From: Pseudomonadota bacterium
GTDB lineage: Bacteria > Pseudomonadota > Alphaproteobacteria > Rhizobiales > Pleomorphomonadaceae
Length of the DNA: 36,334 bases
NCBI GenBank assembly: GCA_018262575.1
Contig: JAGSYU010000016.1
Coordinates: 1 to 36,334, forward strand
Direction: 5' to 3'
Shown here: piece by piece, positions 8,570 to 29,502 of the stretch
Position numbering within the stretch: position 1 is the stretch's first letter
Layout: every line of letters starts with the position of its first letter
Position numbers and translations under genes: made by a program
Notes under the pieces: model-generated
Databases searched by the model: none
Told to the model about the DNA's origin: nothing
Seen by the model: the letters and a program-made list of their open reading frames with translations, nothing else

Positions 8570-9193
8570 TCAGGCGGTAGTCGAGAGGCCTTCGAAGATC
8601 AGGGCGACCGAGATCGCTCCCGGATCGGGGAACCCGAGACTGCGTTCGCCAAGCGTCTTGGCCTTGCCCTTGGTGGCAATCATCTGGCGCGTGGCGTCGA
8701 CTCCGGCCTTAGCGGCGACCGCCGCCTGTTTCAGTGCGGCGTCGGCACCATTGCCAACCGCGGCCGTGAGGGCTTCGACGGCAGGGCTCAGCGCGTCGAA
8801 CATCGTCTTCTCCCCGAGAACCACCTTACCGCGCGCCTGCACATTCTGAGCGGCGGCGGTCATGCCGGCGGCAAGCGTTCCTGCATCGAGCGCTCGGTCG
8901 GCGACGGTGCGGCCGAGCGTGGAGAACCAGGTGCCGAAGACGATGCCGGCTGTACCACCGGCTCCCATCAGCTTGCTGCCGATCATGGAGAAGTCGGCGC
9001 CGGCCGAAACCGGGGCGGAGGCTTCGAGTCCTTCCTTGGCAGCGGTGAAAGCCCTCGCCATGGTCACGCCGTGGTCGCCATCACCGAGGTCGCGATCGGC
9101 CTGACAGAGTAGATCGCAACTGTCGATGATCGATTGGCAGGTCCGCAGCAGGCGGGCTCGCAATTCGGCGGCAGAAAGCACCTCGTTGGTCAT
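8570..9193 (-). CDS. DhaL-type ADP/ATP-binding kinase subunit (DhaL1)
   Basis: Nucleotide-binding subunit of a dihydroxyacetone-type kinase, 207 residues. The metal-binding acidic set of DhaL is present as Asp33, Asp38 and Asp40 in ADRDLGDGDHG. The nucleotide-contact turn is GGTAGIVFGTW, unlike the usual GGASGPLYG, and GERSLGFPDPGAISV is the conserved C-terminal motif. E. coli DhaL holds ADP that is rephosphorylated by DhaM; no DhaM gene occurs in the window, so use of free ATP is inferred. It starts immediately after the DhaK1 stop (TAA then ATG), showing strict coupling. The altered GGASGP turn marks this as the most divergent of the three DhaL copies here. Confidence 0.88.
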   Translation of the reverse strand: MTNEVLSAAELRARLLRTCQSIIDSCDLLCQADRDLGDGDHGVTMARAFTAAKEGLEASAPVSAGADFSMIGSKLMGAGGTAGIVFGTWFSTLGRTVADRALDAGTLAAGMTAAAQNVQARGKVVLGEKTMFDALSPAVEALTAAVGNGADAALKQAAVAAKAGVDATRQMIATKGKAKTLGERSLGFPDPGAISVALIFEGLSTTA

Positions 9194-10198
9194 TTAAACT
9201 CCTCCGAACTGACCGACGCCCGGCACATAGGCAGGCGCGTTCAGTGCGACTTTCAGGTCCGGATTGAGACGCAGGAAGCTCAGCGAGAAGCCGGACATTT
9301 CCTGGCAGGTGAAGTAGGCGCCGATGTCGAAGCGCGACACGACAATTCCTCGCTCGTTGAGGATCATGCGCATCTTGCGGTTGACGATCATCAGTTCCGC
9401 GTAGGTTGCGCTGCCAAAGTTGTCGAGCAGAACGGCGATCTCGTCGCCTGCCTTGAGATTCAGATCGGCGACCAGGTGGTCGGTGATCTCAGCGGTCAAG
9501 TCATCGGCCAGCGGCAACTTCTGGCGCTTGACACCGCGCTCGCCATGCATGCCCATCCCGATCTCGATCTCGTCATCGCCGATCTCGAAGGTCGGCGTTC
9601 CGGTGTGCGGCAACGAACCGGCGCGAACAGCGACGCCAAAGGTCGAGAGGTTTTTCTTGGCCGTTTCGACGAAGGCGAGAACCTCATCGAGCGTATCGAG
9701 ATGCTCGCAGGCCCAGGCTGCCAGCTTGACCTGATAGACGGCGCCGGCAATGCCTCGCTTGAGGTCCGGATCGGCGATGGCGGCATCGTCGGCGACCAGC
9801 GACGTGGCGCAGCGAATGCCTTCCTCGGCCAGAATCTCGGACGCTACCTCGAAGTTCATTACGTCACCGGCGTAGTTACCGAAGACGAACAGCACGCCCT
9901 TGCCGGTGTCGACCGCGCGGGCCGCCACGGCGATCTGATCAGGAGAGGGGGCGGCGAAGATCTCACCGGCCACCGAGGCATCGGCGAAACCTTCGCCGAC
10001 GAACGCCGTATACATCGGCTCGTGACCCGAGCCGCCGCCAATCACCAGAGCGACCTTGCCTGTACGCTTGACGGACCGGCGCAACACCGGCCACATCCCT
10101 TCGCGAACCACCGCGCCGTTGGACAACGCGACAAGCCCGTCGAGCGTCTCGTCGACGATTCTGGCTGGCGCGTTGAAGATCTTCTTGACCTTACTCAT
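9194..10198 (-). CDS. DhaK-type ketose-binding kinase subunit (DhaK1)
   Basis: Substrate subunit of a DhaKL kinase, 334 residues. GGGSGHEP occupies 54-61 and FGNYAGDVMNFE follows. His218 in GMGMHGERG corresponds to the E. coli DhaK histidine that binds dihydroxyacetone covalently as a hemiaminal, so carbonyl substrates fit. The usual GEPG is GERG, and the C-terminal segment (AYFTCQEMSGFSLSFLRLNP) diverges from classical DhaK. Members of this family also phosphorylate erythrulose. The start at 10198 overlaps the DeoR1 stop by 8 nt (ATGAGTAA), so kinase and regulator are translationally coupled. Context favours a tetrulose or dihydroxyacetone as substrate. Confidence 0.9.
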   Translation of the reverse strand: MSKVKKIFNAPARIVDETLDGLVALSNGAVVREGMWPVLRRSVKRTGKVALVIGGGSGHEPMYTAFVGEGFADASVAGEIFAAPSPDQIAVAARAVDTGKGVLFVFGNYAGDVMNFEVASEILAEEGIRCATSLVADDAAIADPDLKRGIAGAVYQVKLAAWACEHLDTLDEVLAFVETAKKNLSTFGVAVRAGSLPHTGTPTFEIGDDEIEIGMGMHGERGVKRQKLPLADDLTAEITDHLVADLNLKAGDEIAVLLDNFGSATYAELMIVNRKMRMILNERGIVVSRFDIGAYFTCQEMSGFSLSFLRLNPDLKVALNAPAYVPGVGQFGGV

Positions 10199-11012
10199 CT
10201 CGGATCTCTTCCCCTTTTGACGGAGTATCGGCCTGCATCGGCACGACCTCGATCGGAACACCGTCGTTGCGCAAACGGTTGATCTCGTTGGCATCGGCAC
10301 CCTCGGTGGTGAAGACGCGGTCGAACTCCTTGAGCTGACCAAACAGGTGCAGCGCCGACTTGCCGAACTTCGAATGGTCGAACAGCAGGAACGACCGCTC
10401 GACGGCCGCCTTCATGGCAATCTTGGTGCGCGTCAAATCGCCCTGGTGCAGGTAGGCCGATCCGTTCCGTACACCGGCCGTGGAAAAGATGCCGAGGTCG
10501 GCCCTGAGGCGAGCCAGGGCAAGTTCACAGTCAATGCCAAGGAAGGCATCCATCACGACATCGTATTGGCCTCCCAAGCAGATGACGGTGAGCTCCTCGC
10601 GGCGGATCATGCTGGTGACCACGCGCGCGGCATTGGTGATCACCGTAAGTGGCTTGCGTAGCGGCAGGAACTCGATCAGAGCGCCGGTGGTCGAACTATC
10701 GTCGATGATCAGTGTCATTCCCGGCTCGATCAACTCGGAAACGTGTCGAGCCAGTGCGCGTTTCTCTTCCTGATGACGGCGGCCGCGATAGTTGAAGTTG
10801 CTGTCGAACACCACGCTCGGCAGGATCGTCACGCCGCCGTGCGTCTTTCGAACGCACTGCATCGCCACCAGTTGCTCAAGGTCGCGATGAATGGTCATGC
10901 GGCTCACAGCGAACTGACTGGCTAACTCATCGACCGAAGAGGACTCGCGCTCGCACAGGTAGTCGAGAATCTGGAGTCGTCTCTGTTCGCCGCTGATCGG
11001 TGTAGATGTCAT
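10191..11012 (-). CDS. DeoR/GlpR-family transcriptional regulator (DeoR1)
   Basis: Protein of 273 residues. The N-terminal winged HTH reads RRLQILDYLCERESSSVDEL and then FAVSRMTIHRDLEQL, the DeoR signature. The C-terminal phosphosugar-sensing domain includes LIIDDSSTTGALIEFL, LTVITNAARVV and LLFDHSKFGKSAL. Such repressors are usually released by a sugar phosphate made by the operon they control. The start at 11012 has GGGAG upstream; a further ATG at 11051 would cross an inverted repeat. It is the first gene of the DhaK1-DhaL1 operon and diverges from the aldolase gene, so it probably controls both. Confidence 0.9.
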   Translation of the reverse strand: MTSTPISGEQRRLQILDYLCERESSSVDELASQFAVSRMTIHRDLEQLVAMQCVRKTHGGVTILPSVVFDSNFNYRGRRHQEEKRALARHVSELIEPGMTLIIDDSSTTGALIEFLPLRKPLTVITNAARVVTSMIRREELTVICLGGQYDVVMDAFLGIDCELALARLRADLGIFSTAGVRNGSAYLHQGDLTRTKIAMKAAVERSFLLFDHSKFGKSALHLFGQLKEFDRVFTTEGADANEINRLRNDGVPIEVVPMQADTPSKGEEIRDE

Positions 11013-11033
11013 CAACTCCCACTCCGAAAACTT

Positions 11034-11052
11034 GGTGGTCGATGTGACCACC
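11034..11052. promoter_or_regulatory. Inverted repeat before DeoR1, possible autoregulatory operator
   Basis: GGTGGTC-GATGT-GACCACC, perfect 7-bp arms with a 5-bp spacer, 22 bp upstream of the DeoR1 start. Position fits autoregulation or a leader hairpin. Confidence 0.5.
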
Positions 11053-11596: not shown

Positions 11597-12586
11597 ATGT
11601 CCGAAACGAGATTTGATGACAAGTTGGCTCGCATTCGCGCCGGGGGATATCGGCGCGGCGACTTCATTATCGCCGATGCCAAAGATGCCGACATGAGCAG
11701 CGGCATCCCGTCCGTCGGCTTGTTGCGGTTGCCCGACGGCGGTACACCGCGTTACCGCACGCGTCCGGAGTATCTCGCCAGCATCGAGGAACTCGTGCGT
11801 CATGACGCCGTCGACATCATGTTGCTGTCGGTCTCGAACCTCGAAGCCATCACCAGACGTGGTGCGCTCGAAGGTTCGAAGGTCAAATTCGCGATCCGCG
11901 CCAACGACGCTACCGATATCTGGCGCCTGCGTGGGGCGGTCTACAAGGATTTGCCTTCGCAAGCCTTCCGGACGTCATCGATCAGGCGGGCTCTTCGCTA
12001 CACCGATCTCGGCCTCTATTCGATCACCTTCAACAACAATCTCGATGCCGATTACGCATCCCTGCAAGCCTTTGCGGCTTTTCGGGAACAAGCATTGGAG
12101 CTGGGCTTCACCTATTTTCTCGAGGTGTTCAATCCCAATGCTTCCACTCTGTCGCCAGAGGACTTGCCGTCCTTTGTCAACGACGCCATCGTTCGCTGCC
12201 TTGCCGGCTTGACGGACGAGGAGAAGCCGCGCTTCCTCAAGATCGCCTACAATGGGCCGAAGGCGCTTGAGGAACTGGCAAGCTTCGATCCCGAAATGGT
12301 GGTCGGTGTGCTCGGCGGTGGCGCCGGCACAACGCGCGATTGTTTTGAACTGGTCTATCAAGCCGAGAAATACGGCGCGCGGGTTGCTCTATTCGGGCGC
12401 AAAATCAATTTGGCCGAATGGCCACTGGAGATGGTGCGCCACATGCGCGCCGTCGCCGACGGCGATCTGACGCCAGCCGACGCCGTTGCTTCCTATCACG
12501 ATATGCTGCGGAAGGCAGGGATCGTGCCCCTCCGCCCCCTGGTGGAGGACTGCAGGGTCACCGAGCCGGTGCTGGAACGCGGCTGA
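11597..12586 (+). CDS. Uncharacterised class I aldolase-like (beta/alpha)8 protein
   Basis: Protein of 329 residues that I cannot assign to a named enzyme. Successive strand-like segments (DIMLLS, VKFAIRAND, LYSITFNNN, FTYFLEVFNP, RFLKIAYNG, VVGVLGGGAGT, VALFGRKI) follow a beta/alpha barrel. The Lys in RFLKIAYNG is placed like the Schiff-base lysine of DeoC/LacD/DhnA-type class I aldolases. GGGAGT and FGRKI at the C-terminal side resemble a phosphate-binding site. It diverges from DeoR1-DhaK1-DhaL1 and is convergent with PfkB. An aldolase that makes or uses dihydroxyacetone (phosphate) or a tetrose phosphate would fit, but this is inference. The ATG start has a weak GCGAGG site. Confidence 0.6.
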   Translation: MSETRFDDKLARIRAGGYRRGDFIIADAKDADMSSGIPSVGLLRLPDGGTPRYRTRPEYLASIEELVRHDAVDIMLLSVSNLEAITRRGALEGSKVKFAIRANDATDIWRLRGAVYKDLPSQAFRTSSIRRALRYTDLGLYSITFNNNLDADYASLQAFAAFREQALELGFTYFLEVFNPNASTLSPEDLPSFVNDAIVRCLAGLTDEEKPRFLKIAYNGPKALEELASFDPEMVVGVLGGGAGTTRDCFELVYQAEKYGARVALFGRKINLAEWPLEMVRHMRAVADGDLTPADAVASYHDMLRKAGIVPLRPLVEDCRVTEPVLERG

Positions 12587-18993: not shown

Positions 18994-19641
18994 CTAGGCG
19001 GCCGTCAGCCGCGCCTTGGCGCCAAGCGCCATGGTTCTGAGGATCAGCGCGCAGGATGTCGCTCCGGCATCGAGCACACCGACCGACCGTTCGCCCAGGC
19101 GGCTGGCCCGACCGATCTTGGCCACCATGGCCTTGGTGCTGTCGCGTCCCTTTTCCGCTGCCTCGATCAGTGCATCGAGGGCATCTGCGAAGGAGAGTCC
19201 GGCGGCATTGGCGGCGTTGAAGGCGGCGAGAGCGGGAACCAGCGCATCGAGCAGCGTCTTGTCGCCAACTTTGGCCGCGCCGATCGACTGGATGCCGTCG
19301 AGGCCGTTTGCCAGCATGTTGGCGAAGGCTTTGGGGTCGATGTCGGCGACGGCTTCGATCGCTTCGGAAAACTGGATGAACATCACGCCATAGAGTGGGC
19401 CCATCGAACCGCCGATTTCGGTCATGAGCACCGTGCCGAGCGTATCAAGGGCGGCTGTCAGCGACATGTCCCGCCCCCGGATGCGCTCGGCGGTCATGCC
19501 GAAGCCCTTGGCCATGTTGACGCCATGGTCTCCGTCGCCGATCTTGCCGTCGATTTCGGAAAGGTAGGCGCGGTTGTCGATGATCGTGTCGGCCAGTTCC
19601 AGGACAATGCTGCCGGCTGTGGCATTCGCAAAGGTCTGCAT
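18994..19641 (-). CDS. DhaL-type nucleotide-binding kinase subunit (DhaL2)
   Basis: Protein of 215 residues with the full DhaL signature: Asp31, Asp36 and Asp38 in EIDGKIGDGDHG, the turn EIGGSMGPLYGVM, VGDKTLLDALVPAL and GERSVGVLDAGATSC. It provides the ADP/ATP site that phosphorylates the ketose held by DhaK2. It follows DhaK2 by 15 bp on the same strand and leads the importer 2 operon. More canonical than DhaL1. No DhaM phosphodonor gene is near, so ATP is the likely phosphate source. Confidence 0.9.
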   Translation of the reverse strand: MQTFANATAGSIVLELADTIIDNRAYLSEIDGKIGDGDHGVNMAKGFGMTAERIRGRDMSLTAALDTLGTVLMTEIGGSMGPLYGVMFIQFSEAIEAVADIDPKAFANMLANGLDGIQSIGAAKVGDKTLLDALVPALAAFNAANAAGLSFADALDALIEAAEKGRDSTKAMVAKIGRASRLGERSVGVLDAGATSCALILRTMALGAKARLTAA

Positions 19642-19656: not shown

Positions 19657-20652
19657 TCAGAGCGCTGCCGGACAAGTGACGTCGACGTCGAGAAACCTTT
19701 TGAGTTCCTCGTCCAGCGCCATCACGGTCAGCGTGGCGCCGACCATCTCGAGCGAGCTGAAATAATTGCCGATGTAGGTGCGGTGAATCTTCAGCCCACG
19801 CGCGGTTATGGCCGCCTCGATGCTGTCGTTGAGGATGTAGAGTTCGTTGAGCGGCGTGGCGCCGAGACCCGAGATCAGCACCGCCACTTCCGTCCCGGGC
19901 GAAAGACCGTGGTCGGCGAGGACGATATCGGCCATCTCTTTGCCAACCTCGGATGCACTCTTCAGTGGCTCGACGCGGACGCCCGGTTCGCCATGATGGC
20001 CGATGCCGACTTCCATCGTGCCGGGCTCGATGGCGAAGTTGGGGTGACCCACGGCCGGCAGCGTGCACGGCCCCAGCCCCACGCCGATCGAACGGCAGTT
20101 GTCGATCGCTTTCTGAGCTGCGGCGCGGACTTCGGCGAGGCTGGCGCCTTCGGCAGCCTTGGCCCCGCCGACCTTCCACATGAAGATTTCGCCAGCCACG
20201 CCGCGGCGCTTCTCGCGCTCGTCAGGGGAGGCGGAGCAGACATCGTCGTTGGCGACAACGGTCGCGATCTCGATGCCTTCTTTTGCCGCCAGCTTGATCG
20301 CCATTTTGACGTTCATATTGTCGCCGGCATAGTTGCCATAGAGGCAGACCACGCCCTTGCCGTTGTTGGCTTCGCGAGCGGCGTCGAGGAAACTCTTGGC
20401 AGTCGGCGAGGAAAACAGCTCCCCCACAGCGACGGCATCAAGCATGTTACGGCCAACATATCCGATGAAGGCGGGTTCGTGGCCTGAGCCGCCACCGGTG
20501 ATCACACCGACCTTGCCGGCGCTCGGTGCCGACCGGGCGACAACGACGCGCGAGTTATCCTCGGAGAGGCGAAGAATATCGGCGTGGGCTTTGATGAACC
20601 CCTTGACCGTATCCTCGACGACCTCGTCGGGATTGTTGATGAAGCGCTGCAT
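19657..20652 (-). CDS. DhaK-type ketose-binding kinase subunit (DhaK2)
   Basis: Protein of 331 residues: ITGGGSGHEPAFIGYVGR (motif 53-60), LYGNYAGDNMNVKMA, and substrate His220 in GIGHHGEPGV. All landmarks of an active covalent-ketose kinase are present. It is the first gene of the operon DhaK2, DhaL2, permease B, binding protein, ATPase, permease A, PfkB. Upstream on the minus strand, TTGACA (20985 down to 20980) is a possible -35 box without a convincing -10. Dihydroxyacetone, L-erythrulose or D-erythrulose are the candidate substrates; sequence alone cannot choose. Confidence 0.9.
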   Translation of the reverse strand: MQRFINNPDEVVEDTVKGFIKAHADILRLSEDNSRVVVARSAPSAGKVGVITGGGSGHEPAFIGYVGRNMLDAVAVGELFSSPTAKSFLDAAREANNGKGVVCLYGNYAGDNMNVKMAIKLAAKEGIEIATVVANDDVCSASPDEREKRRGVAGEIFMWKVGGAKAAEGASLAEVRAAAQKAIDNCRSIGVGLGPCTLPAVGHPNFAIEPGTMEVGIGHHGEPGVRVEPLKSASEVGKEMADIVLADHGLSPGTEVAVLISGLGATPLNELYILNDSIEAAITARGLKIHRTYIGNYFSSLEMVGATLTVMALDEELKRFLDVDVTCPAAL

Positions 20653-21484: not shown

Positions 21485-21946
21485 TCAAGGCGCGGTATAT
21501 TTCTCATCCACGCCGTCGATCGCCTTGACGTTGCCGGCTGATGGTCCGGCTGGATCGAAATGTCCGGTGTTCTGCAGGAAGGCGTCGGCGACGGTCTTGG
21601 CCAGTTCGACTCCGATGACGCGGGCGCCCATGGTGATGATCTGCGCATCGTTTGACAGGGCTGCTCGCTGAGCCGAATAGGTATCATGGGTCAGGGCTGC
21701 GCGAATGCCGCGCACCTTGTTGGCGCTGATGCACACGCCAATGCCGGTGCCACAGATCAAAATAGCCCGATCATATAGTCCGTCACGAACCCCGGATGCT
21801 ACGCGATCGGCCATATTGGCATAGAACGGGTCGGCGCCGTGTTCAGTTCTGGACACTTCGAACACATCAAAGCGCCCTTTGAGATGCTCAGCCAACAGAT
21901 GTGCGAGGCCTTCGCCTGCACTGTCGCCCGCAAGAGCAATTTTCAT
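21485..21946 (-). CDS. rpiB: Ribose-5-phosphate isomerase B-family protein, EryI-like candidate
   Basis: LacAB/RpiB fold of 153 residues. Catalytic Cys65 lies in [17 protein letters not shown], followed by [17 protein letters not shown] and [18 protein letters not shown]. RpiB interconverts aldose and ketose 5-phosphates. The Brucella paralogue EryI makes D-erythrose 4-phosphate from its ketose isomer. GGAAGGTAGGA precedes the ATG. It is transcribed divergently from transketolase across a 233-bp region and has its own terminator. The presence of EryC-like and EryH-like genes in the window supports the EryI role, but ordinary ribose 5-phosphate isomerisation is equally possible from sequence alone. 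Confidence 0.88.
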
Positions 21947-22179: not shown

Positions 22180-24207
22180 ATGCCCAACAATGACAAGGTC
22201 GGCGTCGATGCCGAAACGACGCCCGAGATCCGTAGGCTGGCCAACTGCATCCGCGCTCTGGCTATCGACGGCGTCGAGGCCGCCAACTCCGGTCACCCAG
22301 GCGCTCCGCTCGGCATGGCCGATGCCGCCACCGTGTTGTTTGCCAACCACCTGAAGTTCGATGCGAGCCGGCCCGACTGGCCCGATCGCGACCGCTTCGT
22401 TCTGTCAAACGGCCACGCGTCGATGCTGCTCTATGCATTGCTGTATCTGACCGGCTACGCCGACATGACGCTTGACCAGATGAAAGCGTTTCGCCAGTTG
22501 GGGTCAAAGGCTGCCGGCCACCCGGAATACGGCCACGCCAAAGGCATCGAGACCACGACCGGTCCGTTGGGGCAGGGCATTGCCGGCGCCGTCGGCATGG
22601 CGATGGCCGAGCGTCGTCTCGCCGACGAGTTCGGAGCCGATATCGTCGATCACTACACCTACGTGTTTGTTGGCGACGGCTGTCTTGAAGAGGGCGTCGG
22701 TCACGAGGCAGTTTCGCTGGCCGGCCATCTCGGGCTCGGCAAGCTGATTGTGCTCTATGACGACAATGGCATTACCATCGATGGGCCGACCTCTGTCAGC
22801 TTCTCCGAAGACGTCGGTGCCCGTTTCGCCGCCTGCGGCTGGCATGTCCAGGCTTGCGACGGCCACGCCGCTGCTGCCGTCGACGCGGCGATCGCCGCCG
22901 CGCGCAAGGAAACGGCCCGCCCCTCGCTGATCGCCATGCGGACGGTGATCGGCTACGGCTCGCCCAACAAGGCGGGCAAGGAATCCTCGCATGGCTCGCC
23001 GCTCGGTGCGAAGGAAGCTGCCGCGACCAAGGCGGCGCTCCATTGGACCGGTGGTCCGTTTGAGATTCCCGAGAATCTGCTGGTACGCTGGCGAGAGATG
23101 GGCGCGCGTGGCGCAACAGCCCGGCTCGCCTGGGAGAGGCGCCTTGCCTCGAAGCCAGCGGACGTTCGCGACGAATTCGTTCGCAGAGACCGGCGGGCGT
23201 TGCCCGCTAACTATGCCGCGGCTGTCGGTGAGCTCAAGGCGAAGCTGTTCGCCGAACCGCAGAAGGTCGCGACGCGCCGGGCGAGTCAGATCGCGTTGGA
23301 GGCGTTGACGGCGGCGGTTCCGGAGATGGTTGGTGGTTCTGCCGATCTCACCGGTTCCAACCTGACTCGCGTGCCGTCGGTGGACAGCCAGTTCAGTCGC
23401 AAGACGTCAGGCCGCTACGTCGGCTATGGCGTGCGCGAGTTCGCCATGGGCGCCGCCATGAACGGCATGTCGGTACATGGCGGTCTTATTCCCTACGGCG
23501 GCACTTTTCTGGTCTTTTCCGATTATGCCCGCGGTGCCATCCGTCTATCAGCCCTGATGGGGGCTGGGACCATCTATGTCATGACCCACGATTCAATCGG
23601 CCTTGGCGAGGATGGTCCGACCCATCAGCCGGTCGAACACCTCGCCTCGCTGCGGGCCATCCCCAATCTCATGGTATTCCGACCGGCCGATGCGGTCGAA
23701 ACGCTGGAATGCTGGGATATCGCCGTTCGCAACCGTAACCGGCCATCGCTTCTGGCCCTGTCGCGCCAGGCAGTGCCACAATTGCGCGAAAAGGGCGAAC
23801 CGATTGCCGACAATCGGGCTGAGCGCGGCGCCTATGTCATCCGAACCTATGGTGGCCGCAGGGACGTGACAATTTTAGCTACGGGCACGGAAGTGGCGCT
23901 CGCCGTCGAGGCGGCAGAGACGCTCCATGCAGGTGGGGTCGCCGTGGCGGTTGTATCGATGCCGTCGTGGGAACTGTTCGAGGCGCAGTCGAAGGCTTAT
24001 CGCGCCGAGGTGCTCGGACATGCCCCGCGCCTCGCCGTCGAAGCTGCCGGCAAGTTCGGCTGGACCCGTTACGTGGACAGTGAATCCGACGTGATCGGCC
24101 TCGAGGGGTTCGGCGAATCGGGGCCTGCCGAGCAGCTCTACGCCAAGTTCGGCATCACCCGGCAAGCCATCGTCGACAAGGCCAAGGCGCTGATCGCAGG
24201 CGACTGA
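22180..24207 (+). CDS. tkt: Transketolase
   Basis: Full-length thiamine-diphosphate enzyme of 675 residues that transfers C2 ketol units between ketose and aldose phosphates, using D-erythrose 4-phosphate among others. The N-terminal domain has [36 protein letters not shown] and the ThDP/metal motif [13 protein letters not shown]...[10 protein letters not shown]. The pyrimidine domain has [21 protein letters not shown] and [20 protein letters not shown]; the C-terminal domain ends near [19 protein letters not shown] precedes the ATG. Divergent from RpiB and convergent with DhaL3. Probably an accessory, pathway-specific copy given its catabolic neighbours (inference). Confidence 0.96.
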
Positions 24208-24250: not shown

Positions 24251-24895
24251 TCATACGGCGGGTAAGGCTTCGGCCATCGCCTTGAGAATGATGACGGCCG
24301 ACGCCGCACCCGGGTCGACATGGCCGAGTGAACGCTCGCCCACGCGCGCGGCGCGGCCGCGCACGGCGACCATCGACGAAGTCGCGTTGGCGCCGTGTTC
24401 CGCAGCGGAAACCACCTCCTGCCAGAAGGCTGGTCCGACGAGGTTCCGGGTTTGGGCGAGGGCGGCGGCTTCGGCGGCCGGCAGCCAGGCATCAAGCATG
24501 GTCTTGTCGCCGCGCTGACCTTTGCCGCGCTCGCGGATACCGGTGGCTATCGCTTGCAACATGATGGTAATGGCGGCCCGATCGATCTCCTGCACTCCAG
24601 CCAGACTCTGGGCCGCCTGCCGGAAGGCGGTCGCATAAAGCGGGCCGATCGAAGCGCCAACCGCGTTGAGAAAAGCAATGGCCACGACATTCATCACGGC
24701 GCTCGCCGACGAGAGGTCATGGCGCGGATGGCTGAGTTCGGCGACTACGGCTTTGAATCCGAGCGCCATCGAAATTCCGTGATCGGCGTCGCCTATGGCC
24801 CCGTCGAGATCGGATAGCCGGTCCTCCGCCGACTCCATGGCTTCGGCAATCCTGGAGAATAGGGCGGTGAGGTTGCGAACCGCGCTATCGGACAT
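24251..24895 (-). CDS. DhaL-type nucleotide-binding kinase subunit (DhaL3)
   Basis: Protein of 214 residues. Asp31, Asp36 and Asp38 lie in DLDGAIGDADHGISMALGF, followed by NAVGASIGPLYATAF, RGDKTMLDAWLPAAEAA and GERSLGHVDPGAASA. It should pair with the DhaK domain of the SorC fusion encoded 119 bp upstream on the same strand. Closest of the three copies to the E. coli DhaL motif spacing (IGDADHG). No DhaM in the window. Confidence 0.9.
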   Translation of the reverse strand: MSDSAVRNLTALFSRIAEAMESAEDRLSDLDGAIGDADHGISMALGFKAVVAELSHPRHDLSSASAVMNVVAIAFLNAVGASIGPLYATAFRQAAQSLAGVQEIDRAAITIMLQAIATGIRERGKGQRGDKTMLDAWLPAAEAAALAQTRNLVGPAFWQEVVSAAEHGANATSSMVAVRGRAARVGERSLGHVDPGAASAVIILKAMAEALPAV

Positions 24896-25014: not shown

Positions 25015-27111
25015 CTACAGCACGGTCAAAAATGCTGATTCGCATGGATGCTCCAGAAGTTTCGCCAACTCGTCGTCCAGGTGCATCACGGTGATCGACG
25101 CCCCCGCCATATCCAGTGAGGTGCAGTAGGGGCCAACCCAGTTGGCACTGACGGTGATGCCCCGCGCTGCGAGGCGTTGCTCGACGCGCCGGTAGATGAT
25201 GAAAAGCTCCATCATCGGCGTGGCGCCAAATGAGTTGATCAGAACGGCGACGCGATCGCCCGCCACTGCGTCCATCTCCTTGAGGATGGCATCCATGACG
25301 GTGTCGACAATGGCGTCGGCGGTGCGGAGGCGCTCGCGCGCCACGCCGGGCTCGCCATGGATGCCGATGCCGACTTCTATGTCATCGGGCCCAAGATCGA
25401 ACGTCGGCCGGCCAATCTGTGGCAACGAGCAAGGCTCGAGCGCGACGCCGAACGTATAGGTGCGAGCGTTGGCCTTGCGCGTCACGGCCTCGCAGGCATC
25501 GAGCGGCAGACCGAGGTCGCAGGCGGCCCCCGCGATCTTGAAGATCAGCACGTTGCCGGCAACGCCACGTCGGCCTTCGCGACTTTCGATCGGTGAGGAC
25601 GCTATATCGTCGGTGGTCAGCACCGTCCGTACGCTGATACCGCGGCTTTCGACGATCTCGGCCGCCATCTCGAAGTTCATCACGTCCCCGGCATAGTTGC
25701 CGTAGACGAACAGAACACCGGCGCCGCCGGACGCTGCTTCGGCGCTAAGAGCGATCGGATCGGGTGGCGGAGATGAAAAGATGTTGCCGATAGCCACGGC
25801 ATCGGCAAGTCCGCGACCGACATAGCCGAGAAAGCAGGGTTCGTGCCCGGAGCCACCGCCGATGACCAGGCCGACTTTGCCCTGACGCGGCCCGGTGCGG
25901 GCGACGAACACACGTTTGGCATCGGCGACGGGAACGATGTACCGGGCATAGGCCTTCTGAGCCCCATCGAGCATTTCATCGACGGCATCGCCAGGGCGAT
26001 TGAGGAACTTCTTGATATGGGTGCGAGCCGGGACCAGAGGCCGGGGCGGCGCGTCGGGACGCTGGTGGATGCTCGTGACGCCGTCGGCGTTGAGGATGCC
26101 GCGGGCAGTGGCCGCGTCGGTGATCAGGACGCTGGCATAACCGCCGCGCAACAGCGCCAATAACGCGGGCACCTTGTCGAAGCCGCCCGCGACGGCGATG
26201 CGGGTCCGAATCGCCGCGAGGCTGTCGAGTGAAATTCCGATCGTGCGGGCGTCGAGCGGGCCTTCGACCAGATTACCCCGCTCGTCGATGAACCGCCCGG
26301 CCATTACGCCCACGGCACCACGAGCAAGATAGTGCTGCAGCGATACCGATTCGAAGAAGCCGCTGGCGTGGATCGTGGAATTGGGCCGGAGCGACGAGAT
26401 CCCGAAGACGATCCGGTTGGCCTCGGCCAGTTCCGCAAATTGGCCGGCGATCAGCGGTTCGCTCATCAAGGCCCGGGCCATTTCCGGTGAGCCGACGATA
26501 GCCGGCGCCGTGATATTGACGCATCTTGCTGACAGCGCCTTGGCAAAGGCCGAGGCGCAGAGGTCTGGCGTGTAGGGAAAGGTCGCCATTGTCGACCCGG
26601 TGGCCTGGATAACCGTCACGTCCTGCAGAGCCGACGCGCCGAGCCGTTCGGCCACGGCCATCACCGTCCGGCCCCAGACAACGCCGAGCCTGTCGCCGGA
26701 CTTGATCAGGTTGCTGATGGAGAGTGCGCCGGCGATGGCGAGGCGGCCGATCAGCGGTCGCGTCTCCTCGCTGGGCACGACGAGACACTCGTCGAGGCCG
26801 AAATGGCGCTTGAGTTCGTCGGCGATGGTGAGCGAGGCAAGGTGGGCGGGGTCGAGCGAAATGTTGACGATGCCGCGATCACGAGCCTCCTGCAAATAGG
26901 CGTTCACCGTGGCGCGTGACACGCCCATGGCGTCAGCGATCTCGCCTTGCGTCAACCCGTCTTCGTAGTACAGCCAGCAGGCCCAGACATAAGGGTCGTT
27001 GCCGAAGCGCAACGGAATGCCCGATTGACCGACGTCGCCACCCTGTCGGGAGGGATTTGCTACGCGCTGCGAGGGCGTTTTGGCGGCCATGTCCCGGGGA
27101 TCTCGTCGCAT
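25015..27111 (-). CDS. SorC-family regulator fused to DhaK-type kinase subunit (SorC-DhaK3)
   Basis: One uninterrupted 698-residue polypeptide. Residues about 50-80 are a SorC/DeoR-type HTH (LTQGEIADAMGVSRATVNAY). About 95-345 are the SorC sugar-phosphate-binding domain (GRLAIAGALSISNLIKSGDR, VVWGRTVMAVAERL, GVMAGRFIDERGN). About 365-698 are a complete DhaK with GGGSGHEP (418-425), GNYAGDVMNFE and substrate His585 in GIGIHGEPGV. Stand-alone SorC regulators and DhaK subunits each match their part in full, so this is a true fusion. It could sense its own product or substrate and control DhaL3 and neighbours. ATG at 27090 is an alternative start. It follows DeoR2 by about 95 bp. Similar fusions have, I believe, been annotated in rhizobia, but I know of no characterised one. 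Confidence 0.9.
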   Translation of the reverse strand: MRRDPRDMAAKTPSQRVANPSRQGGDVGQSGIPLRFGNDPYVWACWLYYEDGLTQGEIADAMGVSRATVNAYLQEARDRGIVNISLDPAHLASLTIADELKRHFGLDECLVVPSEETRPLIGRLAIAGALSISNLIKSGDRLGVVWGRTVMAVAERLGASALQDVTVIQATGSTMATFPYTPDLCASAFAKALSARCVNITAPAIVGSPEMARALMSEPLIAGQFAELAEANRIVFGISSLRPNSTIHASGFFESVSLQHYLARGAVGVMAGRFIDERGNLVEGPLDARTIGISLDSLAAIRTRIAVAGGFDKVPALLALLRGGYASVLITDAATARGILNADGVTSIHQRPDAPPRPLVPARTHIKKFLNRPGDAVDEMLDGAQKAYARYIVPVADAKRVFVARTGPRQGKVGLVIGGGSGHEPCFLGYVGRGLADAVAIGNIFSSPPPDPIALSAEAASGGAGVLFVYGNYAGDVMNFEMAAEIVESRGISVRTVLTTDDIASSPIESREGRRGVAGNVLIFKIAGAACDLGLPLDACEAVTRKANARTYTFGVALEPCSLPQIGRPTFDLGPDDIEVGIGIHGEPGVARERLRTADAIVDTVMDAILKEMDAVAGDRVAVLINSFGATPMMELFIIYRRVEQRLAARGITVSANWVGPYCTSLDMAGASITVMHLDDELAKLLEHPCESAFLTVL

Positions 27112-27206: not shown

Positions 27207-28097
27207 TCAGGGCTCGACGATACGCAACTGTACGCCGCTCTGGCGCAGGCTTTCCGCCTCGGAGGGAGCAATTCCGCTGTCGGTGATCACCAAGTCGAAT
27301 TCATGAAGGGTCGCGAGCTTGATCAGCGCCGTCTTGCTGAATTTGGAACTGTCGATCAGCAAAACCCGCTTTTCGGCTGAGTCCATCAGGGCGCGTTTGG
27401 TCTTCACCACCTCCTCCTGCTGATGATACGCGGTCGTCCCCTGCACCGTCGAGGTCGACATAAACAGGATGTTGGCCCTGAGCGAGCCCACCGCCTGCTC
27501 GCACACGTACCCGAAGAAGCCATTGAAGCGCGGGTTGTAACGGCCGCCAAGGCAGATCACCTCAATGCCGTGACTGTCCTTGAGCTTGTCGACAACGGTT
27601 AGGCTGTTGGTGATGACAGTGAGCGGCTGGATGCCGACAAGTCGCGACGCGACGCGAACGGCGGTCGTCGAATCGTCAAGAATGATCGCCTGGCCCGGCT
27701 CGATCAGTTCCGCGGCGCCGCGTGCCAAAGCGTCTTTCTCGCGGTCGGCGAGGCGGGAGCGGTAGAGGATGGTGCTGTCAGCAAGATTGGACGAGCGCAC
27801 GGTTACCCCACCGTGGACTCGGCGGACGATGCCCTGTTCCTCGAGAACCTTGAGATCTCGGTGCACTGTCATCCGGCTGACGGCGAAATGATCGGCGAGT
27901 TCCTCGACCTGCGCTGAGCCGACCGGCAGCAGATAATCGAGCAAGGCTTTGCGCCGGCCAGTCGGGCCAGCCGAAGACCTCACGTTCCGGTGCGCGTCGT
28001 CGTCGATATCCAAGATCGTCTTACCTTTCTTGTAAGCTACGGAATGCCTTAGCACGGTTTTCCTACGAAGGTAATCTTCACTGGTCTTGCAGGGCAT
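27207..28097 (-). CDS. DeoR/GlpR-family transcriptional regulator (DeoR2)
   Basis: HTH segment RRKALLDYLLPVGSAQVEEL then HFAVSRMTVHRDLKVLEEQG, and sensor domain AIILDDSTTAVRVASRLVG, LTVITNSLTVVDKL, ICLGGRYNPRFNGFFG and LLIDSSKFSKTALI. The start is uncertain. The ATG at 28097 gives 296 residues but has GGAGG only 2 nt away. A TTG at 28013 gives 268 residues, the usual DeoR length. An ATG at 28208 gives 333. First gene before SorC-DhaK3 and DhaL3, and divergent from transaldolase; a palindrome overlapping the transaldolase promoter region is its likely operator. The likely inducer is a sugar phosphate. Confidence 0.85.
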   Translation of the reverse strand: MPCKTSEDYLRRKTVLRHSVAYKKGKTILDIDDDAHRNVRSSAGPTGRRKALLDYLLPVGSAQVEELADHFAVSRMTVHRDLKVLEEQGIVRRVHGGVTVRSSNLADSTILYRSRLADREKDALARGAAELIEPGQAIILDDSTTAVRVASRLVGIQPLTVITNSLTVVDKLKDSHGIEVICLGGRYNPRFNGFFGYVCEQAVGSLRANILFMSTSTVQGTTAYHQQEEVVKTKRALMDSAEKRVLLIDSSKFSKTALIKLATLHEFDLVITDSGIAPSEAESLRQSGVQLRIVEP

Positions 28098-28205
28098 TAC
28101 CTCCGACAGGCATCCGGATGGATGCGGTCTTGGTGGCGGGCGGTCGCGCCGGATACCGACGTCCGGTGAAGTGTTACAATGTTGTGGTGTTTTCCAATGA
28201 ACCGT

Positions 28206-28221
28206 CACATGACGTGATGTG
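28206..28221. promoter_or_regulatory. CACAT-N6-ATGTG inverted repeat
   Basis: Inverted repeat in the DeoR2/transaldolase intergenic region (28098-28542), nested inside ACCGT...ACGGT (28201-28230). Possible operator on the DeoR2 side. Confidence 0.35.
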
Positions 28222-28542: not shown

Positions 28543-29502
28543 ATGGCAGACAAGCTTACCGAACTCGCTCGGCATACCATTATCGTGGCCGACAGCGGCG
28601 ATATCGCGCAGATCAAGGCCGTCAAGGCCGAAGATTGCACCACCAACCCGAGCCTGATCCTGAAGGCGGCCAGCAAGCCCGAGTATGACGCCCTGATGGA
28701 CAACGCGGTGGCCTACGCCATCGCGCACGAGGGCGAACCGGAGAAGCGTCTTGAGTTGGCGCTCGATAAGCTTGCCGTCAATTTTGGCGGTGAACTGTCG
28801 CGGATCGTCGCCGGCTACGTCTCGACCGAGGTCGACGCCCGCCTATCCTTCGACGTGGATGCGACGGTGCGTCGTGCCGAGCGAATGATCGCCCTTTATC
28901 GCGAGGCCGGAGTGGACCCCAAGCGCATCCTTATCAAGATTGCCGCCACCTGGGAGGGTGTGCAAGCCGCTGCGGCTCTCAAGGAGAAGGGCATCGCCTG
29001 TAACCTAACTCTGATTTTCGCCAAGGCACAGGCCGCCCTGTGCGGTGCGGCTGGTGTTTTTCTGATCTCGCCGTTCGTCGGTCGCATCACTGACTGGTAC
29101 AAGGCTCACGGCGTCACCGTGACGTCGGCTGAGGACGATCCTGGTGTTCGCTCGGTGCGGGAAATCTACGACTACTTCCGGGCCATGAACTATAAGACCG
29201 TCGTAATGGGCGCGTCCTTCCGCAGCGTCGATCAAGTGCTCGGCCTCGCCGGATGCGATCGCCTGACTATCAGCCCCAATCTGCTGGAAGACCTGCGGGC
29301 CACCGAAGGCCCCGTCGAACGCAAGCTTGGTGCCCTGCCGCCCTCGGCGAACATCAGGCCGCTGACGCTCGATGAGAAAAGTTTCCGCTGGCAGATGAAC
29401 GAGGATGCCATGGCTACCGAGAAGCTGGCCGAAGGCATTCGTTCCTTCGCAAAGGATACGGAGACACTTCTGAGTCTCATCCGCGCCAAGTTGCCGGCCT
29501 GA
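28543..29502 (+). CDS. tal: Transaldolase (TalB-type)
   Basis: Protein of 319 residues, the TalB length class. Schiff-base Lys132 lies in RILIKIAATWEG, at the same number as in E. coli TalB. The N-terminal KAEDCTTNPSLIL supplies the active-site Asp region; CNLTLIFAKAQAA, ISPFVGRITDW and GASFRSVDQV are conserved. It moves a dihydroxyacetone unit between sedoheptulose 7-phosphate/fructose 6-phosphate and erythrose 4-phosphate/glyceraldehyde 3-phosphate. GGAG precedes the ATG. The gene ends just before an IS200 remnant but is complete. With transketolase it would consume erythrose 4-phosphate made by the other enzymes here. Confidence 0.95.
   Translation: MADKLTELARHTIIVADSGDIAQIKAVKAEDCTTNPSLILKAASKPEYDALMDNAVAYAIAHEGEPEKRLELALDKLAVNFGGELSRIVAGYVSTEVDARLSFDVDATVRRAERMIALYREAGVDPKRILIKIAATWEGVQAAAALKEKGIACNLTLIFAKAQAALCGAAGVFLISPFVGRITDWYKAHGVTVTSAEDDPGVRSVREIYDYFRAMNYKTVVMGASFRSVDQVLGLAGCDRLTISPNLLEDLRATEGPVERKLGALPPSANIRPLTLDEKSFRWQMNEDAMATEKLAEGIRSFAKDTETLLSLIRAKLPA

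Follow-up and report, generated by a model that had tools for sequence, protein, structure and literature searches.

A single gene in the window (the whole 36,334-nucleotide stretch of DNA analyzed here) joins a SorC-family transcriptional regulator to a DhaK kinase subunit in one chain, and a gene for a DhaL subunit adjoins it. We put it at slightly below an even chance that this fusion is, with its full mechanism and both of its inferred activities, a bifunctional, trigger-enzyme-like regulator-enzyme of a pathway for a C4 ketose of the erythrulose type, a reading drawn from sequence. The fusion may in this way let the enzyme switch on its own pathway. The architecture itself is not new, being already named in databases: the NCBI product name "bifunctional sugar-binding transcriptional regulator/dihydroxyacetone kinase subunit DhaK" covers the same arrangement with DhaL adjacent, and the window protein is a member. 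Records under this name include UTG96126.1 (S. meliloti ABS7), which shares 70.8% identity with the query across 99% of its length, and WP_084438665.1 (Shinella sp. HZN7). The initial annotation had guessed that such fusions might carry a database annotation, which proved right and lowers the novelty of the find; it also knew of no functional study, and we found none of a SorC-DhaK fusion in the open-access literature.

A regulator and a kinase subunit in one chain

The initial annotation had described regulator and kinase subunit as one chain free of stops and frameshifts, and this held up: the 698-codon frame (Table 1) has no internal stop in the ORF check of the window, neither a stop nor a frameshift was seen near residues 350 to 365, and 67 distinct fused homologues share the arrangement. 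The regulator half has the domain order that marks the SorC family, an HTH followed by Sugar-bind PF04198 (198 bits on the fusion, cut-off 27), and the Pfam model PF02733 (Dak1) matched residues 386 to 693 with an E of 6e-116 (387 bits, cut-off 31.4). The DhaK half fell below the curated DhaK equivalog TIGR02363 (378 versus 406 bits) and is classed as a Dak1-domain protein; the DhaQ co-activator profile TIGR02362 gave 199 bits against a cut-off of 413. His585, said to be intact, indeed sits in a GIHGEPG motif and is kept in every fusion, as are His423 and Asp476. We take His585 to be the ketose-binding His, a role transferred from the E. coli enzyme, and Asp476 to be the equivalent of E. coli DhaK Asp109. 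The conserved portion of the fusion begins near residue 33, and full-length matches, from at least 78 loci, mostly begin at residues 1 to 8 or 32; the true start codon may be Met1 or Met8.

Table 1. Features of the window that are discussed in the text, with positions counted from its first base
Feature	Position	Strand	Evidence
SorC-DhaK fusion gene, 698 aa	25015..27111	(-)	ORF, profile matches
HTH DNA-binding part, residues about 36-88	26848..27006	(-)	HTH-type Pfam/NCBIfam matches, about 46-88
Sugar-bind (SorC effector) domain, residues 93-341	26089..26835	(-)	PF04198, E 2e-58
Flexible linker, residues 342-366	26014..26088	(-)	variable length, low pLDDT
DhaK (Dak1) domain, residues 367-695	25027..26013	(-)	PF02733
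Codon of His423 (equivalent of E. coli DhaK His56)	25843..25845	(-)	kept in 67/67 fusions
Codon of Asp476	25684..25686	(-)	kept in 67/67 fusions
Codon of His585, in GIHGEPG motif	25357..25359	(-)	kept in 67/67 fusions
Dedicated DhaL (ATP-binding subunit)	24251..24895	(-)	TIGR02365, 178 bits vs cut-off 138
DhaK2, free-standing	19657..20652	(-)	profile matches
DhaL2	18994..19641	(-)	profile matches
DerI-like D-erythrulose-4-phosphate isomerase	21485..21946	(-)	NF051858, 232.6 bits, just under cut-off 240
Transketolase	22180..24207	(+)	profile match
DeoR-family regulator upstream of the fusion, longest ORF	27207..28208	(-)	profile match
Transaldolase	28543..29502	(+)	profile match

The AlphaFold model of the fusion shows two confidently predicted bodies (mean pLDDT 84) with a disordered linker between them, where pLDDT falls below 50 at residues 349 to 360. 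The orientation between the bodies is undefined (pTM 0.53), so the model lends no structural support to crosstalk. Among the best 50 Foldseek matches, the closest fold of the DhaK half was L. lactis DhaK 3ct4 (TMt 0.93), with further matches to E. coli DhaK, DhaK-DhaL, the DhaR(N)-DhaK complexes 4lrx and 4lry, and DhaQ 2iu4; the regulator half lay on the folds of DeoR, LsrR, and SorC 2w48, structures that the Sugar-bind half also matched by sequence. None of these 50 matches spans both halves.

We collected 80 fused ORFs, 67 of them distinct including that of the window, from many separate assemblies, which rules out chance and sequencing error as their source. In a plasmid search, 109 of the 1,069 records with any match had one place covering at least 80% of the query, and a scan of genome contigs gave at least 78 loci matching the fusion. 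One match spanned both halves in 20 of 396 other genomes of the order sample, where G317 showed two overlapping partial matches on two contigs, and in 4 of 397 other genomes of the phylum sample; two of these four were already in the order sample, and two belong to the same class but a different order. No genome among the 384 others of the class sample passed an E of 1e-110. The named carriers are mostly Rhizobiales, with a few Roseobacteraceae (Salipiger, Tropicimonas), and the fusion is present on pSymB of Sinorhizobium meliloti 1021, an organism well suited to laboratory work. A full-length fusion was absent from all 13 same-genus and all 6 same-family genomes searched.

In both E. coli and L. 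lactis, contacts with unrelated regulators couple dihydroxyacetone kinases to transcription. The comparison with E. coli DhaR-DhaK made in the initial annotation was apt, given the closest folds listed above. In E. coli, a kinase subunit contacts a transcription factor (4lrx, 4lry; 3pnl), but DhaR and DhaK are separate chains and DhaM is used, whereas the window has a single chain and DhaM was not found in its 86%-complete genome. To our knowledge, DhaR is not a SorC protein. According to PMC6643234, DhaR controls the dhaKLM operon in E. coli. The L. lactis pair DhaQ-DhaS (2iu4, 2iu6) likewise places a DhaK paralogue in transcription control and matches in fold, but the DhaQ profile scores far under its cut-off on the fusion. 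DhaQ and DhaS are separate chains, and the partner is of the TetR type; for a streptococcus, PMC10746215 terms DhaS/DhaQ DeoR/TetR-like factors. The SorC, B. subtilis DeoR, LsrR, and CggR proteins share the HTH and Sugar-bind parts, but the matched chains end after Sugar-bind and carry no kinase. Thr171 of the fusion aligns with the Lys of the DeoR LKG motif, presumably the Schiff-base Lys. BirA and PutA also join a DNA-binding domain to an enzyme-like fold; these proteins and MocR have other folds and ligands than SorC-DhaK. The same kind of joining is described for MocR in PMC5320631. The fusion would add a covalent link to yet another, third type of regulator, spread over many alphaproteobacterial families with DhaL beside it, and would make a natural test of whether an enzyme is able to furnish the inducer of its own regulator.

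A proposed mechanism and a sensor-only alternative

In the mechanism that we propose, DhaK and DhaL would form an ATP-dependent kinase, and the ketose would be bound covalently through His585 and then phosphorylated. The ketose phosphate made on the same chain would be the ligand of the tethered SorC domain, so that the DNA-binding part would report flux through its own kinase and control the surrounding genes and its own gene. Such a protein would work like the DhaR-DhaK-DhaL relay of E. coli or the DhaS-DhaQ relay of L. lactis, though as a single chain whose DNA-binding module is unrelated to theirs. The suggestion of a trigger enzyme in the initial annotation is compatible with these data. 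Phosphosugars are the kind of ligand bound by SorC-family regulators, and the best 50 Foldseek matches include structures whose titles name LsrR bound to phospho-AI-2 and a DeoR effector domain bound to its ligand. Since the product of the kinase is of the ligand type of the regulator family, DhaK-DhaL and SorC fit together logically, and the long, variable linker favors local production of an inducer over rigid mechanical coupling. The strict form of the proposal, a self-informing regulator in which a catalytic DhaK makes the phosphoketose that switches its own SorC domain, gated by the availability of DhaL and with flux rather than ketose concentration being read, is tentative and somewhat improbable. 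If true, the protein would be a single-chain equivalent, ancient and conserved, of the DhaR-DhaK and DhaS-DhaQ relays, built on an unrelated DNA-binding module.

The C4 ketose had been suggested in the initial annotation. DerI connects erythrulose-4-phosphate to erythrose-4-phosphate, which transketolase and transaldolase consume in erythritol and threitol pathways. The window contains a homologue of DerI, just below the cut-off, together with a transketolase and a transaldolase, which supports the suggestion and makes a C4 ketose a likely substrate, whose identity we infer. Genes for a sugar ABC importer and for a sugar kinase of the PfkB type are also present, scoring under the curated cut-offs of named sugars.

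A DhaL gene next door had been reported, and the match over the TIGR02365 cut-off agrees (Table 1). The search for other fusions and their neighbors that had been called for yielded the 67 distinct fusions, with a DhaL adjoining them in all 54 contexts that exceed 12 kb. The gene order is DhaK-DhaL-fusion-DhaL in 38 of these, and DhaL lies upstream of the fusion in a subclade that includes Roseobacteraceae. Judged from longest-ORF starts, the eight loci with DhaL upstream showed an overlap with the fusion of 4 bp in six (L067, L076, L154, L155, L158, L159), of 1 bp in L152, and of larger size in L153. An Asp/Asp/Asp/His motif was retained in 48 of 48 DhaLs of the fusion-partner type that we examined. 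In the 48 of 54 loci that have all parts, the partial mirror-tree correlation was 0.75 for the fused DhaK and its DhaL given DhaK2, and 0.01 for DhaK2 and the fusion's DhaL given the fused DhaK; fused DhaK versus DhaL2 given DhaK2 still gave 0.58, so the signal is not clean. DhaM (TIGR02364) had no match in the genome of the window, and an E. coli positive control was matched; the phosphoryl donor would then be ATP and not the PTS, but with a genome 86% complete this is not proof of absence.

A second kinase is usually present, and this keeps a sensor-only role a serious alternative, if a rather doubtful one. In such a protein, as in L. lactis DhaQ, the DhaK part would bind the ketose covalently but not act as a kinase in the cell, docking of DhaL or occupancy by the ketose would alter DNA binding by SorC, and DhaK2-DhaL2 would metabolize the ketose. 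In 49 of 54 contexts, a further DhaK that might handle the metabolic flux is located within 7 kb of the fusion. The same-genus genomes point the same way. A transaldolase at 82 to 85% identity occurs in 8 of 12 of them, and all five stretches drawn from those eight places contain the transaldolase, a DeoR 74 to 77% identical, and DhaK2-DhaL2 but no fusion; the sole stretch reaching far enough also has DerI and the transketolase. The fusion therefore looks like an add-on rather than the core kinase of the pathway, and these loci fit a window contig that belongs to the genus, with the fusion pair as an addition.

The kinase site itself speaks on both sides. DhaQ 2iu4, a co-activator, is among the closest folds, but the fusion reaches less than half of the DhaQ cut-off, the three catalytic-type residues are invariant, and its own DhaL keeps the motif named above. 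The same His/Asp/His residues are found in 123 of 123 free DhaKs (a set from which the fusion fragment L136 and four distant DhaKs of less than 38% identity were left out), so their conservation indicates an intact kinase site and nothing special to the fusion. The free set has 51 DhaK positions with at least 97% invariance, and the 67 fusions conserve 48 of these to at least the same degree. The three relaxed positions are 421 (Thr, Ala, or Cys in place of Ser in 47 of 67 fusions), 588 (Arg in place of Pro in 20), and 561 (Gly or Ala in place of Cys in 8). Positions 421 and 588 lie beside the catalytic loops and flank the catalytic histidines, so catalysis could be weakened or altered. We regard these changes as the best argument against full catalysis, though the window fusion retains Ser421, Cys561, and Pro588. 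Sixteen further positions between DhaK residues 436 and 690, for example Asn443, Pro449, Trp658, and Cys663, are at least 97% fixed in the fused proteins and occur in less than 25% of the 123 free DhaKs; they may mark substrate choice.

Linker, free-standing relatives, and history of the fusion

Fusion could also have been a matter of convenience, serving only to co-express a working kinase subunit with a SorC regulator of the usual kind, and no functional crosstalk would then occur between them. The linker is compatible with this, being disordered, 25 to 36 aa long among the 67 fusions, and weakly constrained: the median dN/dS was about 0.80 for the linker, about 0.15 for the HTH, 0.26 for the sugar domain, and 0.16 for DhaK, rough values by NG86 from pairs with dS of 0.15 to 1.6 and medians near 1. 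By these ratios, the parts that bind DNA, ligand, and ketose are all maintained, and the tether is barely under constraint. Free-standing relatives are compatible with it as well. L164, which comes from another family, has a 345-aa SorC gene, then 96 in-frame bases containing stops, and then a separate DhaK gene, whose product is 60% identical to the fused DhaK. In L150 and L151, a distant SorC gene (25 to 26%) lies directly upstream of a one-chain DhaK-DhaL gene. Against mere convenience, the persistence of the joined form across many families, with only two changes between fused and free forms required by the DhaK tree, and the DhaL beside the fusion in all 54 long contexts suggest that joining matters, and we consider this explanation unlikely.

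The two changes come from a DhaK tree in which 24 fused rows split into 21 and 3, with 8 free rows adjoining the 3. A single fused clade was not rejected on this tree (AU p 0.187), and the SorC tree grouped the fused rows with weak support (29/82), its free rows including long branches. The contig-edge fragments L072, L074, and L078 and rows at least 80% alike were left out of the trees, and a second DhaK tree comprised 39 of 76 rows. The history may have been one fusion followed by loss or splitting, or two fusions.

It is very unlikely that the SorC part has become a relic, leaving a protein that is simply a kinase subunit. A second regulator, the DeoR-family gene upstream in the window, is the only point in its favor, but the HTH is the most conserved part of the fusion (mean pairwise identity of 0.77 among 67 fusions) and has the low dN/dS given above. 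In the effector part, Trp146, Gly147, Arg148, Gln169, Gly172, Gly309, Gly310, Thr331, and Asp332 are each present in 67 of 67 fusions. A sequencing or assembly artefact that joined two genes, for which the separate genes of L164 might speak, is ruled out by 67 distinct fused homologues, leaving it a vanishing probability.

Upstream regions and other genes of the window

A promoter-like element precedes the fusion in many Rhizobiaceae, about 115 to 185 bases before the start of the SorC domain (e.g., L036, L037, L113). It consists of TTGCAA, 17 bases, and CATcTT, with a conserved CATTGCtT in the spacer; the window lacks the TTGCAA/CATcTT element. A refined matrix had 27 matches in 681 kb, 26 of which sit upstream of the fusion, and one match in the base-shuffled sequence of a not quite identical set of 48 fused loci. 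These very sites had served to build the matrix, so the result is evidence that the fusion gene has a conserved promoter, not that there is an operator. Short palindromes upstream of the fusion were rarer (best in 9 of 48 loci) than in the coding background (best 26), and the window yielded no operator. In rhizobial loci, the region upstream of DhaK2 is coding sequence, as seen by eye in 8 of 35 regions, with an SDR oxidoreductase annotated there in Shinella; no footprint can thus be read at that place.

The DeoR-family gene probably has a true start that gives a shorter gene than the longest ORF of Table 1, and a gene of this family also precedes the fusion in L160. At 2085-2636, the window encodes a 6-phospho-3-hexuloisomerase-like SIS protein that scored under the cut-off. 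The neighbors of the distant SorC genes in L150 and L151 resemble this left part of the window, with an HxlB-like SIS gene 64 to 66% identical to 2085-2636, importer genes (69 to 81%), and an epimerase-like gene (75%). A 329-aa ORF at 11597-12586 had no NCBIfam match at an E of 1e-20. A further DhaK-DhaL pair lies at 8570-10342 beside a DeoR-family regulator (10191-11051), which brings the window to three DhaK domains and three DhaL genes.
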